Below, piece by piece: positions 9,378-24,727 of a stretch of DNA of 26,431 nt (position 1 is its first letter; every line of letters starts with the position of its first letter). Under the pieces are notes generated by a model. It did no database searches. It saw only the letters and a program-made list of their open reading frames with translations, and was not told where the DNA came from. The translations under genes and the position numbers were made by a program. This stretch comes from a virus: positions 1 through 26,431 of the IMG/VR virus record IMGVR_UViG_3300020213_000106; one strand, written 5' to 3'.

Positions 9378-9725
9378 TTATACTCCCGATTTCATCGCTT
9401 CTAACTTTTTGTTTTCATATTCGATCCTTTCGGAAAGAGCCTCCAGAAAAACGCGATACCATAAATCAGGCATCGCATCTATATCAGATTGTGAGAAAGA
9501 ACTAACACCCAAAACAAATGGTTGCCAATACGATCTATTTTTTTTATACAATTCATAAATATACTTTTGATATTTATCTGGACTCGGACTCCTATCGAAT
9601 AACGGAAATTTATTTGTCCAGCTTCCCTGCAAGAAACCGATGAGCCATCTTAGACCACACCTCCGCAGAATAAGGATGGAGTGAGTCAAAATTTGGTTTG
9701 GAATGAGCCCCCATAGGGAAAACAC
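9378..9725 (-). CDS. Second tail-assembly chaperone frame (frameshift-expressed)
   Basis: The frame opens after a TAG at 9732-9734 and could begin only at a GTG (9725) with no clear ribosome site, so it is probably expressed by a frameshift from the upstream chaperone frame. The last 75 residues look like real protein (SPDKYQKYIYELYKKNRSYW and a C-terminal helix EALSERIEYENKKLEAM). The part overlapping the first frame looks like out-of-frame noise. It is positioned between the first chaperone and the tape measure gene, as for lambda gpG/GT and the Mu pair. The C-terminal domain normally binds the tape measure. Frame offset is +1 (equivalently -2) relative to the first frame. Confidence 0.75.
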   Translation of the reverse strand: MFSLWGLIPNQILTHSILILRRCGLRWLIGFLQGSWTNKFPLFDRSPSPDKYQKYIYELYKKNRSYWQPFVLGVSSFSQSDIDAMPDLWYRVFLEALSERIEYENKKLEAMKSGV

Positions 9726-9954
9726 AATGCTCTAAAAAGTTGTCCATCAAATCTCCGTTAGAGATTTTCTCGGTGAGACTTACTCCACGCCATTCATCGG
9801 CTTTCCTGTTACCTGGATGTTCCAATCTATAATCAAGACCGTCGATAAAAGTGATCTCGGCCTTCCGGCCATCATCTGATACCTTTTTCAAAATAGGATT
9901 TTTAGGAAGAGGTTTTGATTTATTCTCTTCTGTTGGACTTTTAATTTCGCTCAT
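9610..9954 (-). CDS. First tail-assembly chaperone
   Basis: A 114-aa protein, coupled by ATGA to the tail tube gene. The N-terminal 30 residues are polar and Lys/Pro-rich, then a compact domain contains LDYRLEHPGNRKADEWRG and ends in HPYSAEVWSKMAHRFLAGKL, a pattern typical of tail chaperones placed between tube and tape measure. Its role is to coat the tape measure during tube assembly. Because its frame looks coding right up to the TAA at 9610-9612, most product is probably the short form, with a minority fused to the next frame. Confidence 0.78.
   Translation of the reverse strand: MSEIKSPTEENKSKPLPKNPILKKVSDDGRKAEITFIDGLDYRLEHPGNRKADEWRGVSLTEKISNGDLMDNFLEHCVFPMGAHSKPNFDSLHPYSAEVWSKMAHRFLAGKLDK
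9707..9714 (-). other. Candidate programmed frameshift site (G-run)
   Basis: On the coding strand the sequence reads ATGGGGGC, with frame 0 as ATG GGG GCT and the second chaperone frame as TGG GGG CTC. A +1 slip on the G-run keeps GGG pairing exactly; a -2 slip is also possible. Phage Mu is known to use a -2 shift on a similar G-run in its tail chaperone genes. The site lies just inside the point where the second frame opens (9731). Against it, frame 0 still looks coding for 32 more codons. A later alternative is GCA GGG AAG at 9622-9630, where GGG could realign on GGA. Confidence 0.35.
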
Positions 9955-19067: not shown

Positions 19068-20459
19068 TTAAACGGTCTCAGGTAGTTCTGGCGTCCCAAA
19101 TTTGAGTCCATTGTTATTTTCAGATGTGTAATCAGAGAATTTTTCCATCTGTGGAAATCTCATTTGCTTCGTTGAGTCCGCGCCTAGCACTCCAGTAGTG
19201 ATGTATATTTGATCTGCTTGTGCATTTTTCAAATACGTGTCTGCCTCAGAGTTCGGTGTCGCTTTGTAGAGAGGTTTAAATTTGAATTCCCAATCGAGCG
19301 CTTTATAGTTTCCACCGAGCAGTCGATAAATTTCACCTTGAGTGGATCTAATTTCTAATTCTATGAATCGATTGATGATTGGCCTTACTTCCAACTCGCG
19401 AAATGTATGAACCATTTCATTGTAACTGATATCATCTCCATCAGATCCACCGCCAATGTTGATTACTGATTGAGTCTTCCCTAAAATTTTGGATTTTGGA
19501 ATTTTAGAAAGACCAGATAAAACTTCAAAAACGAAATTAAGAAGACTATCCAAATTGGAATCTGAGATTCCAGTATTGCCAAGCCTTTCAAGAGATTCTT
19601 TTTCTCCTAACATCGCAGTTGATTGAGTTGAAAGTGATCTTCTCATTAAACGAAGGTAGTCCATCATTTGTTGTGGAGAGGAATCAATTTTATCTGTTTT
19701 CAAAACTTTGACTGCGAGCTCGAATAACACCGAAGTGACAGACCAAAGAGCCGTATCGATTGCCATGATACCGTCATAGATTTTTTCTAATACAGATACA
19801 CCGCGCATGTTATCCCAAACCCAACTGTTCACTAGCCAATGGAATCTTGATGGATCGAGAGTGGTGCCTCCAATGGAAATTGATGGTTCATGCCAGAGGC
19901 TAGATAGCGGATCATAGGAAAGACGATTCACTGAATAACGATCCGGCTCAATTACATTTATGAATTGTAATTTCCGAATCGTGTCTGGCATTTTTAGTGC
20001 CAACTGAGAATCTGTTTGTGGAAGGTCTGCAAGAATTCCCCAAAACAAAAGTGAACCATTGGAATGTAACCTAGAATTTCGAATGTGTTCACGAACGCGA
20101 CCCATCAGTTTCATTTCTTCCATACGATTCAAGAGAATCCTTGAAATTCCTAATGTCTTTTCACCGGTAACTAAATTATCTTTATCGCGATTTGTTTGTA
20201 AGTCGATTCCTTCGCGTGTGGCATCATCAGCCACTGAGTCGATGATGTTCGCTATGAAACCATTTGACTCATAATATTTCCGAGCTTCCGAAGGAAAAAA
20301 TCTTGTTGGATTCGGAGCTGTGTCTCTAAGTTTATCTCGTCCTAAAATTCCTTTCCCTGTTCCAGTATGAATTAGCGTGTCAAGCCTAGACTCCATATCA
20401 TTTGTTGATGGAATAATTTTTGCTTCACGATTTTGTTTATTGTTTTTGGATCTTCTCAC
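19068..20459 (-). CDS. Portal protein (DUF1073-like)
   Basis: A 463-aa protein in the portal slot, of the DUF1073-like class. Characteristic segments are RFFPSEARKYYESNGFIANI and IDSVADDATREGIDLQTN near residue 80, GSLLFWGIL, FINVIEPDRYSVNRLSYDPL, HWLVNSWVWDNMRGVSVLEK, and the C-terminal long-helix region with RPIINRFIELEIRS. The start is taken as GTG at 20459, because it forms a GTGA overlap with the nuclease stop and has GGAGG 6 nt upstream; the TTG one codon earlier is too close to that site. It forms the dodecameric DNA entry ring. Confidence 0.85.
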   Translation of the reverse strand: MRRSKNNKQNREAKIIPSTNDMESRLDTLIHTGTGKGILGRDKLRDTAPNPTRFFPSEARKYYESNGFIANIIDSVADDATREGIDLQTNRDKDNLVTGEKTLGISRILLNRMEEMKLMGRVREHIRNSRLHSNGSLLFWGILADLPQTDSQLALKMPDTIRKLQFINVIEPDRYSVNRLSYDPLSSLWHEPSISIGGTTLDPSRFHWLVNSWVWDNMRGVSVLEKIYDGIMAIDTALWSVTSVLFELAVKVLKTDKIDSSPQQMMDYLRLMRRSLSTQSTAMLGEKESLERLGNTGISDSNLDSLLNFVFEVLSGLSKIPKSKILGKTQSVINIGGGSDGDDISYNEMVHTFRELEVRPIINRFIELEIRSTQGEIYRLLGGNYKALDWEFKFKPLYKATPNSEADTYLKNAQADQIYITTGVLGADSTKQMRFPQMEKFSDYTSENNNGLKFGTPELPETV

Positions 20460-21190
20460 CAATCACCTCCGAGAAGTAAGTCGAAGAAATTCATTCTGTT
20501 TTTGATCGATTTTGCTTTTATTCCAAAACCTAGAATTTTTATAAGACAGGCTAAAGTATCAGGCGCATCATCATGTTTTACGAGTTCAGTATATTTTAGA
20601 ATTTGTTTGATAAATTCAGAACTAACGGAATGACTGAATCGGATTTTCGGCCAATTCAACTTCACATAGTTCTCGATTCGAAATTCTTTTGAATCAGAAG
20701 AGTAATGTGGCTTCACTCTGAGTCCTCGATTTTCTAACTCAATGATCAATGCATCTTGGCCTTGGTTGATTTCTACATGAAGTAGTTCAATTCCAGATTG
20801 ATGATAGTGCTTTTCAACTCGATCATAGGTAGATCGAAGATCAGATCTCCATATCTCTCCTTTTTTTAAAAAGAAAAGATCTTCGTGAACATTGCCGGCA
20901 CCGAAACCATTAAAGTCTTTTTTCTTCGATTCCTTTTTGAAAGCAGGATCCCACCAACCAACCATCTTAAGGTCGTCAGGTGGCTCAGCAAAAACGGGAT
21001 CGACAAACCAAGTTCCAACGGTGTCCATAGGGATCTGTTGATAAATTCCGCTAAATCTTTTCTCGTTGTAAAGAGCTCTGATCTTTTGCAAACGTTCAAT
21101 TGGATATCGTTCTGGCCAAAGCGCATTGCCTTCTACATCTATGGCAGGCAATCGTAAAACTTTCCAATCGCCAATCGTTTCGAGTTTCAT
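20456..21190 (-). CDS. Large terminase, nuclease subunit (separate gene)
   Basis: A 244-aa protein matching the C-terminal half of a phage large terminase. It begins with the linker DWKVLRLPAID and ALWPERYPIERLQKIR, continues with FSGIYQQIPMD, and then shows the RNase-H-like nuclease: D81 in GWWDPAF, E140 in LHVEINQGQD, and D208/D211 in KHDDAPDTLA. All three acidic positions are kept, so it should be active. The ATG overlaps the ATPase gene stop (ATGA) and has its own AAGGA 6 nt upstream. Its frame is closed by TAA at 21200-21202, so little read-in is possible. Cuts concatemeric DNA during packaging. Confidence 0.88.
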   Translation of the reverse strand: MKLETIGDWKVLRLPAIDVEGNALWPERYPIERLQKIRALYNEKRFSGIYQQIPMDTVGTWFVDPVFAEPPDDLKMVGWWDPAFKKESKKKDFNGFGAGNVHEDLFFLKKGEIWRSDLRSTYDRVEKHYHQSGIELLHVEINQGQDALIIELENRGLRVKPHYSSDSKEFRIENYVKLNWPKIRFSHSVSSEFIKQILKYTELVKHDDAPDTLACLIKILGFGIKAKSIKNRMNFFDLLLGGDW

Positions 21191-21906
21191 TCTTCGTCCT
21201 TATCTTCGCCTAAGAGACGGCCTGTGAGATCATTCCTAGTCCACCTCGTATGAACAATTAGAACTCTTGCGTCTGGAGCTAAACGAGCTTCCGCAACACT
21301 GAGATAGTTCTCCCATATTTTTTCATTCATCGTTTCCGATGTTGCTTCTTCCATATTTTTGTATGGATCATCTATGATAAGAAGTCCTGCGCCTTCACCT
21401 GTTAATCCACCGGAGAGACCAGCACCTATCACCACACCACCGGCGGTTGTTTGCCAATCACTCCGAGCTCTGACGTCATCTCGAACGGCAACATCAGGGA
21501 AGACTGCTGAGAAAGCAGGAGCTTCAATTCGGTCACGTATCCAACCAGTAAATCGTTCTGCTTTTTTATTTGAATATGATGCAATGATGACTTCGGTTTC
21601 AGGATGTTTTCCTAAAAACCATGTGGGAAAAATGCGAGTGCAAATTTGCGACTTACCATGTCTAGGTGGCAAATTTAAAATGGCTCGGAGTATCTTTCCT
21701 TTTTCCATATATTCTAATAAGTCGATGATGGTTTTGATATGCTTAGGTGATTGGAATTTAGGATCTATATATCTTGCGAAAGCGAGCAAAGACTTTTGAC
21801 CAAATTCTTTTCCATAATGAATTCGATCATCTTTTCTGATTTTGGAGAATCTTTTGGTTCCTTCCTCAGAAAGTTGTTGGTAGATATTTTTATCTATCGG
21901 TAACAT
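21187..21906 (-). CDS. Large terminase, ATPase subunit (separate gene)
   Basis: A 239-aa protein equal to the N-terminal motor half of a phage large terminase. It carries Walker A LPPRHGKS (79-86), Walker B LLIIDD (175-180) and the coupling motif VHTRWTRNDL (about 218-227), then ends at once in an acidic GEDKDEE tail. Normal terminases continue in the same chain for another 220 residues; here the nuclease is in the next gene in a different frame. It overlaps the small-terminase gene by 17 nt and has no clear ribosome site, so coupling is likely. Drives DNA translocation through the portal. Confidence 0.9.
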   Translation of the reverse strand: MLPIDKNIYQQLSEEGTKRFSKIRKDDRIHYGKEFGQKSLLAFARYIDPKFQSPKHIKTIIDLLEYMEKGKILRAILNLPPRHGKSQICTRIFPTWFLGKHPETEVIIASYSNKKAERFTGWIRDRIEAPAFSAVFPDVAVRDDVRARSDWQTTAGGVVIGAGLSGGLTGEGAGLLIIDDPYKNMEEATSETMNEKIWENYLSVAEARLAPDARVLIVHTRWTRNDLTGRLLGEDKDEE

Positions 21907-22453
21907 TTTTTATAGAAGGAGTATTGGAAGAGGAAACGTGAATGAAATCATCTCGAATGATTTTGTTAATCTCGTCCCAATGTTTTTCAATCACTACAGA
22001 CACAGGCTTACATTTCATGAGTGCATTGAAAAAAGATTGGATGAGCATCATTGGTGAAAGTTTGGAATCTTCTATGTCTGCAAGTTTGGTTTCAAATTCT
22101 GCCAAAGTCTTGAATGCATAAGCAGCACCTTCAAGCGTCTTGATGCCTGGTGCTCCTGCAGCAATCATCGAATCATAAATTGTATCTATGATTTTTTTAG
22201 TTCTCGAACGAATCTCTACTAAACGATTTTCTGCAACAACTTCGATTCGACTTTCAGCTTTCTGAGTGACAACCTTCCTTCGATCTTCCCAATTCATCCC
22301 AACTGAATCTTTTTTTGTAGCCCATGCTTGAACTGACTTAGCAGTAGTTCGTGTTCCAAATTCTGTTCGCAAAGCGAGTGCTATGGAATTATAAGATTCC
22401 CCACTAACCAAAAACATAAAGAAGGCACGTTCACGAATGATCTCAGGTGTCAT
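21890..22453 (-). CDS. Small terminase subunit, Mu/DUF1804-like
   Basis: A 187-aa helical protein in front of the large terminase. The N-terminal 60 residues form an HTH typical of Mu-like small terminases (RERAFFMFLVSGESYNSIAL, then TTAKSVQAWATKKDSVGMNW). A long central helix follows (about 60-90), then a Gly/Ala-containing segment and an amphipathic C-terminal helix. The frame extends further upstream to 22525, but the ATG at 22453 forms an ATGA overlap with the spanin-like gene, and the extra 24 residues are Arg/Cys/Phe-rich noise. Recognises phage DNA ends for packaging. Confidence 0.78.
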   Translation of the reverse strand: MTPEIIRERAFFMFLVSGESYNSIALALRTEFGTRTTAKSVQAWATKKDSVGMNWEDRRKVVTQKAESRIEVVAENRLVEIRSRTKKIIDTIYDSMIAAGAPGIKTLEGAAYAFKTLAEFETKLADIEDSKLSPMMLIQSFFNALMKCKPVSVVIEKHWDEINKIIRDDFIHVSSSNTPSIKNVTDR

Positions 22454-22803
22454 CCAAACCTCTTCAAAAGTATTGGACCTACAAAATATATTAAGGCACC
22501 GAATAACAAAATGCCAACGAACCAATACAGAAAATCAATCTGACCTGCTTTATAGGTCAAGTTTTGGATTTCTTCTTGGTTCTCACCGGATTGTCTTCCT
22601 GTGATCTGAATCAAATTAGCCGCTCTTTCCAATTCGTTTGCAGTTGCGATTTCTTCTTCCGTCGCGTTCGGCTTTTCCTTTATCGATTTAGCTTTTTCTT
22701 TTAGAGAATTTGCATAGGCATTTGTAGCAGGCTCCGAAATAGGTAGACTGCTACATCCATTGGATACAAATAACAAAATCAAAATGGAATATACGATTTT
22801 CAT
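22450..22803 (-). CDS. Candidate unimolecular spanin (lipoprotein with C-terminal membrane helix)
   Basis: A 117-aa protein with an N-terminal lipoprotein signal: MKIVYSILILLFVSNGC, with Cys17 as the lipid-attachment site in a loose spirochaete-type lipobox. A polar helical stretch (about 18-90, with KEKAKSIKEKPNATEEEI and NELERAANL) follows, then one membrane helix at about 91-112 and a basic KRFG end. A lipid anchor in the outer membrane joined to an inner-membrane helix by a periplasmic helix is the architecture of unimolecular spanins such as phage T1 gp11. It lies after the holin-like gene (ATGA overlap) and before the small terminase. Function is inferred from topology; a simple cell-envelope lipoprotein is the alternative. 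Confidence 0.68.
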   Translation of the reverse strand: MKIVYSILILLFVSNGCSSLPISEPATNAYANSLKEKAKSIKEKPNATEEEIATANELERAANLIQITGRQSGENQEEIQNLTYKAGQIDFLYWFVGILLFGALIYFVGPILLKRFG

Positions 22804-23771: not shown

Positions 23772-23996
23772 TTAGTTTCCTCTTTGCTTTCTCTGCAAAA
23801 GTGTTTTCACATCCAACCGGACTTCTTCCATAACTTTGCCTATGGAAAACATTTGAGTTTCAAGAACCACAATTCGAACTTCGTGATCTCGATACATAGT
23901 CTGGTATTGAAAGACAAAAGAGATTCCAAGCCCCATGACGTAGAGCAAATCCTTCAAGCTCAAATCTTTTGAAATAGATTTTACAATTTCACTCAT
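23772..23996 (-). CDS. Small membrane protein with coiled-coil tail (lysis module)
   Basis: A 74-aa protein. The start is set at ATG 23996, because it shares one base with the SGNH stop (TAATG); an upstream start would overlap more. A membrane helix (about 15-33, LLYVMGLGISFVFQYQ) is followed by a charged amphipathic helix with heptad leucine/valine spacing (VRIVVLETQM, VMEEVRLDVKTLLQRK). Placed between a secreted hydrolase and the candidate endolysin, it could be a second holin, an antiholin or a lysis accessory. I do not recognise its family. Confidence 0.6.
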   Translation of the reverse strand: MSEIVKSISKDLSLKDLLYVMGLGISFVFQYQTMYRDHEVRIVVLETQMFSIGKVMEEVRLDVKTLLQRKQRGN

Positions 23997-24727
23997 TACA
24001 GTAAAACCCCACATTGAATTCTTAAGAGTTCTTTAATACAGACTGCTGGTGTCTTATTTGGATGTATCGCATCCAACATTTCTGATTCAGATAATGGATT
24101 GGAAAAACAAACATCGGGATCAACCCAACACGCGTCTTGTGATCGGGTTCGCATTGCAGAAGAAATGATTTTTCTATTTAAGTTTGCATATTCAACGAAG
24201 GTTTTATGAACTTCAACATACGATAATTTTGTATTTGGAAACCAAGAACGAAGAGATTTATGAAGATCATCAAAAGTTTCAATGATTGTTGAATTTGTTC
24301 TTTTAGAAAGGAGATCATTACCTCCAACTGTAGAGATAACAATATGTTTAGGAGCGATCCTTATTGATTTTTTGAAACGAGATCGATAATCACAAAGCAT
24401 ATCACCCGGCACTGCGTTATTCTGAGTATTCGTTGTATCTAAGAAACCTTCAAAGGTCGAATAGATTGTAGCTGTCGAATCGCCGAGTAAGCTATTCTCA
24501 TATTGTTTGAAGTCTGATAAAAATCTTTCTGCGAAACCACCGGGGACGTATGAAGAATTTAGCTGATAGGAAAGCTGACAATTCGCAGGTTCATAGATTT
24601 GATATTGTTGGTTATAAAGAATTCCGAGTAGGAGAAGATTGCGATCAGTCTCTTTTGATTCTTTGGCGAAACAGAAGATATTTTGAAAGGTTAGAAAAAA
24701 TATGAAAAGAATTTTAGCTAGTCTCAT
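23996..24727 (-). CDS. Secreted SGNH/GDSL hydrolase
   Basis: A 243-aa protein with an N-terminal signal peptide (basic start, ILFIFFLTFQNIFCFA). It has SGNH blocks in the right order: LLGDSTA with Ser84, STVGGND at 133-138 with the Gly/Asn oxyanion residues, and LDAIHPN with Asp219 and His222. Seven cysteines suggest disulfide bonds and a periplasmic or external site. Such enzymes hydrolyse esters or acetyl groups on lipids, peptidoglycan or polysaccharides; the substrate is not readable here. It is the first gene of the lysis-type block, with no ribosome site seen, and its ATG lies inside an inverted repeat. Confidence 0.8.
   Translation of the reverse strand: MRLAKILFIFFLTFQNIFCFAKESKETDRNLLLLGILYNQQYQIYEPANCQLSYQLNSSYVPGGFAERFLSDFKQYENSLLGDSTATIYSTFEGFLDTTNTQNNAVPGDMLCDYRSRFKKSIRIAPKHIVISTVGGNDLLSKRTNSTIIETFDDLHKSLRSWFPNTKLSYVEVHKTFVEYANLNRKIISSAMRTRSQDACWVDPDVCFSNPLSESEMLDAIHPNKTPAVCIKELLRIQCGVLL

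Follow-up and report, generated by a model that had tools for sequence, protein, structure and literature searches.

Does a large terminase gene that is divided between two open reading frames record a gene in decay, or does it encode a packaging motor whose large subunit is kept as two proteins? The question is raised by the window, by which we mean the whole stretch of 26,431 nt analysed here (positions 1 to 26,431 of the viral record IMGVR_UViG_3300020213_000106), where one ORF (TerL-N, ORF1) carries the ATPase motifs of a terminase large subunit (TerL) and the next (TerL-C, ORF2) carries its nuclease motifs. The packaging genes follow one another on the minus strand in the order TerS, TerL-N, TerL-C and portal (Table 1), which places the large terminase between TerS and portal. 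Past the portal gene lie genes for a MuF-like pilot, a head maturation protease, a major head protein, a tail sheath, a tape measure and the baseplate, the gene set of a contractile-tailed phage. Elsewhere on the minus strand, an overlapping ORF pair between the tail tube-like and tape measure genes (9378-9954, comprising ORFs at 9610-9954 and 9378-9725, the second with a frame open upstream only as far as 9731) sits where a frameshifted tail-assembly chaperone pair is usually encoded, and an ORF near the packaging genes (23996-24727) is predicted to encode a secreted or lipoprotein-like SGNH/GDSL hydrolase, with a weak Pfam match below the cutoff.

Table 1. Features of the packaging region of the window, with the evidence for each
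Feature	Position	Strand	Evidence
Terminase small subunit gene (TerS)	21890..22525	-	phrog_2414, E=7e-40; overlap with the TerL-N start
TerL-N, ATPase (ASCE core) half of the large terminase, 239 aa	21187..21906	-	phrog_4758, Pfam Terminase_6N, AF2 model
TerL-C, predicted lid, hinge and RNase H-type nuclease half, 244 aa	20456..21190	-	phrog_5573, Pam1 alignment
Portal gene (Phage_portal_3)	19068..20462	-	Pfam PF06381, E=1.8e-42; phrog_146; 7 nt overlap with the end of TerL-C
ATGA stop/start overlap of TerL-N and TerL-C	21187..21190	-	sequence
AAGGA, Shine-Dalgarno-like, 6 nt spacer to the TerL-C ATG	21197..21201	-	sequence; duplex energy -5.9 kcal/mol
TAA in frame with TerL-C, 9 nt upstream of its ATG	21200..21202	-	sequence

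Both ORFs are recognizable as parts of a terminase. TerL-N (predicted mass 27.2 kDa) contains a Walker A motif (PPRHGKS, aa 80-86), a Walker B motif (LLIIDD, aa 175-180) and a coupling motif (IVHTRW, aa 217-222), the residues of which are largely invariant across 11 aligned relatives, and it matches phrog_4758 (terminase large subunit, 243 positions; E=3e-86) as well as Pfam Terminase_6N. Its AF2 model (pLDDT 73) finds TerL ATPases as its best PDB matches, namely the PhiV-1 terminase, T4 gp17 and P74-26. TerL-C (predicted mass 28.6 kDa) carries a D/E/D set of nuclease acids, D81 (WWDPAF), E140 (HVEINQG) and a D of HDDAPD (206-211), and D81, E140, D207, D208 and D211 are invariant in the same number of aligned relatives. 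It matches phrog_5573 (terminase large subunit, 250 positions) with E=1.5e-57, as do the relatives L004-L012 with values up to 1e-110. The AF2 model of this half is poor (pLDDT 39), so that its putative identity as an RNase H-type nuclease is drawn from its sequence; PDB sequence searches with it returned no useful match.

The two halves together account for a whole TerL. They match the full-length family phrog_38 in order, TerL-N at profile positions 266-466 and TerL-C at 467-707, and nothing is therefore missing at the junction; in pairwise alignments with the TerL of the Pseudanabaena phage Pam1 they are likewise collinear with no residues missing, and the joined halves align end to end with this continuous protein by hhalign (E=2.5e-128, in a profile whose rows include Pam1 itself). 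An intein-interrupted TerL was rejected as a candidate, as no insert of the intein or intron type separates the halves, which overlap by 4 nt. Every position given by an earlier sequence-only reading of this DNA for the motifs, the ORFs, the ATGA, the AAGGA with its 6 nt spacer and the upstream TAA is exact.

The simplest account of such a junction would be that a recent frameshift, an assembly error or decay of a prophage broke an intact terL by a single indel, and the frame does step by a single base at the junction, within a purine-rich stretch. The sequence-only reading had instead argued for a functional split and had proposed comparing the junction across related prophages. That comparison strongly supports its view: three scans of IMG/VR yielded 18 related records with an ATPase half 59-100% identical to that of the window, the terminase gene is split in all 18, and no continuous relative lies one indel away, so that an ATPase and a nuclease in one polypeptide are absent from the window and from every one of these relatives. 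One of them, an 8.6 kb metagenome contig (L003, IMGVR_UViG_3300022222_000060), shares 99.5-100% identity with the window across TerS, the two TerL halves and portal. This record comes from another metagenome and is identical to the window at the junction. In independent records of other assemblies and other lineages the gene is likewise always divided, and the sequence at the junction differs. The portal, TerS, head and tail genes of the window are intact. Both halves are under strong purifying selection, with dN/dS of 0.027-0.071 in diverged pairs, whose synonymous sites are near saturation (pS ~0.55-0.73); L086 and L087 are nearly identical and differ at too few sites for dN/dS to be judged. 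We rejected a single indel, assembly error or decay on these grounds and regard it as almost out of the question.

Among the related records the split is stable and its junction is not. At least three junction geometries occur, with two frame relations. In the window, L003, L004, L011, L012 and L049 the start codon precedes the stop by 1 nt in an ATGA overlap, with the second ORF in the -1 frame; in L005-L008 and L085-L091 an ATG, GTG or TTG start lies 11 nt before the stop, giving a 14-nt overlap, and in L009 and L010 it lies 13 nt after the stop, across a 10-nt gap, with the second ORF of both of these groups in the +1 frame. The order TerS, TerL-N, TerL-C and portal is kept in 19/19 sequences, the window included. 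In a quick tree a single branch (SH-aLRT 99) has all of the 12 split sequences chosen as representatives on one side, and relatives outside this clade (at most ~42% identity) that have a complete gene are all continuous, with one frame running into the nuclease; these include L046, counted as continuous on its unbroken annotated CDS despite an automated "SPLIT" flag. A scan of genome contigs returned one distant, continuous gene only. The plain reading is one ancestral split that has long been maintained. Within the ATPase half itself, the N-terminal part of L011 resembles L009 and its C-terminal end resembles L012, a pattern that suggests recombination inside the gene.

Oddly named or short matches were checked as possible further cases, and all of them (Verity, phiCbK, PVN02, BF503P4, Chickadee, Gina, Pam1 and LE3) proved to have a single continuous gene. 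The match in Gordonia phage Verity (gene 2, L164) is an 881-aa continuous protein annotated as "exonuclease" that matches the terminase ATPase half in sequence.

A split at the level of ORFs could still yield one protein, if programmed ribosomal frameshifting fused them into a single-chain TerL, made alone or beside a short ATPase. The ORFs overlap or abut, and the AAGGA upstream of the junction is a Shine-Dalgarno-like element in a layout able to stimulate -1 shifts. However, the shift that would be needed varies by lineage, from -1 in the group of the window to +1/-2 in the others, within a possible shift window of 4 to 38 nt, and the junctions show no slippery sequence in common. The constraint is tightest in L011, where the shift window is 4 nt long and is closed by a stop codon that a -1 slip from GAA must read through. 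Each second ORF moreover begins at a start codon of its own, in most cases accompanied by a Shine-Dalgarno-like stretch. With neither a constant frame relation nor a shared slippery site, programmed frameshifting was rejected as a general explanation, and we consider it very unlikely here.

The putative ribosome-binding site of the window contributes little to the case for a functional split. According to the sequence-only reading an ATGA together with a ribosome site would hardly arise by chance, but this is weak on its own, as anti-Shine-Dalgarno pairing is as good or better in 20% of in-frame windows of the ATPase ORF. The site is stronger in most relatives than in the window, and strong in several of them, and it is the comparison of relatives that settles the question of the split.

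Where the cut lies bears on how two chains could act as one. The sequence-only reading had placed it at the interdomain linker, which the motif distances and the alignment show to be wrong. The cut falls 17 residues past the tryptophan of TRW in the coupling motif and 80 residues before the first nuclease Asp, D81 of ORF2. In the D6E TerL the lid holds Y213, M216 and R224 and the linker spans 230-241 (PMC5727402); with the D6E coupling motif at ~169-171 and its first nuclease Asp at D263, a motif assignment made in this analysis, this linker follows the coupling motif by 59-70 residues and precedes D263 by 22-33 residues. The cut of the window, so much closer to its coupling motif, is therefore not at the linker; it would lie about 40-55 residues N-terminal to the linker position of solved terminases and, as placed by the distances and the alignment, is inside the ATPase domain, ahead of its final strand and of the lid.

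Comparison with Pam1 points to what the second chain may contain. Residues 3-62 of ORF2 are 52% identical to the Pam1 TerL downstream of its coupling motif, and in alignment with Pam1-type TerLs ORF2 begins just before a conserved W-x-V-L-x-L-P-A-I strand and contains an ALWPE...YQQxP stretch. The general ASCE fold has the strand order 5-1-4-3-2, in which the W-x-V-L-x-L-P-A-I strand would presumably adjoin the Walker A strand, and the AF2 model of ORF1 contains just the strands that precede it. From the strand order, the Pam1 alignment and the strands of the model, we infer how the domains are shared out: residues 1-60 of ORF2 are probably the last core strand and the lid, with hinge and nuclease following in the same chain, and ORF1 would hold the remainder of the ATPase. 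The lid was mapped by motif distances, a MAFFT alignment and the published D6E numbering; an hhalign alignment of D6E with the family was not confident.

We think it highly probable that TerL is here an obligate two-chain subunit, translationally coupled, whose lid completes the ATP cleft in trans. Translation of ORF2 would be coupled to that of ORF1 by their overlapping or near-overlapping stop and start codons, yielding roughly equal amounts of both chains, which would bind each other to form one motor subunit active in packaging. The first chain would supply the ASCE ATPase core with its Walker A, Walker B and coupling motifs, and the second would add the final strand of this core's sheet together with the lid or "transmission" subdomain, the hinge and the nuclease, so that ATP would be bound where the core of the first chain faces the lid of the second. 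Published models have the lid pass motion to the nuclease (PMC5727402; PMC3012670); hydrolysis would shift a lid that is covalently joined to the nuclease, leaving the transmission of power unbroken. The natural cut may thus be tolerated because lid, hinge and nuclease share one chain.

Another arrangement of separate chains can be weighed against the coupled two-chain subunit. The ORFs could encode two functional proteins that form no joint subunit, with the core translocating alone in the manner of phi29-type motors, where the nuclease is vestigial, and ORF2 serving only as a nuclease for maturation. Either domain, ATPase or nuclease, can be active when isolated, as in T4 (PMC3012670), and the D6E ATPase alone hydrolyses ATP faster than the full-length protein (PMC5727402), but the alignment and distances map the last core strand and the lid to the nuclease chain, which would make ORF1 alone an incomplete ATPase; we judge this arrangement unlikely. 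A bolder form of the two-chain reading, which we consider improbable, is a motor built as a ring of heterodimers with the ATP site completed in trans, in which core and nuclease units would be exchangeable, or unequal in number, across initiation, translocation and cutting.

If the coupled two-chain subunit is the right description, this phage lineage has kept the large subunit of its packaging motor as two proteins over long evolution, and it offers ready-made separable motor parts for reconstitution and structural work. The split is already implicit in PHROGs as two database clusters, since PHROG 4758 and PHROG 5573, held as separate "terminase large subunit" families, are the best fits to the two halves and match them in length. 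In some phage annotation guides, terminase genes may also be annotated separately as "ATPase domain" and "nuclease domain". The literature search, which covered open-access full texts, turned up no account of a TerL naturally divided between ATPase and nuclease, and the papers that it found on split terminases concern other things. Two relatives of ~37 kb each, G003 and G005, encode Mu-type transposase homologues, G003 together with a DNA transposition protein homologue and Mu Gam, and share gene order with Leptospira transposable (Mu-like) prophages (PMC8705779). The passages of that paper considered here show TerL as one block and do not use the term "split" (PMC8705779).

Among the closest known systems, the TerLs of Pam1, T7 gp19 and the Terminase_6/PHROG 38 type have in common with that of the window the ATPase motifs, the D/E/D set, their order and the TerS-TerL-portal context, but a TerL of the Pam1/T7 gp19 type is one polypeptide, whereas that of the window is two, cut inside the ATPase domain. 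By homology and context the gene of the window is a TerL that lacks the single-chain feature, and it is best called a split variant. The TerLs of phages Mic1 and phiCbK are interrupted by an intein and rejoined by protein splicing, unlike that of the window, which has no insert. A further comparison is with T4 gp17, which when cut at its linker in the laboratory retains ATPase and nuclease activities and loses translocation, and so packaging (PMC3012670; PMC9958956). These T4 data argue against a two-chain reading insofar as physical linkage can matter (PMC3012670; PMC9958956). The divided gp17 and the terminase of the window both consist of two chains with the same functions, but the engineered cut of T4 lies at the linker and the natural cut lies upstream of the predicted lid, a natural experiment which suggests that lid, hinge and nuclease have to remain one piece, whereas the core may form a chain of its own.
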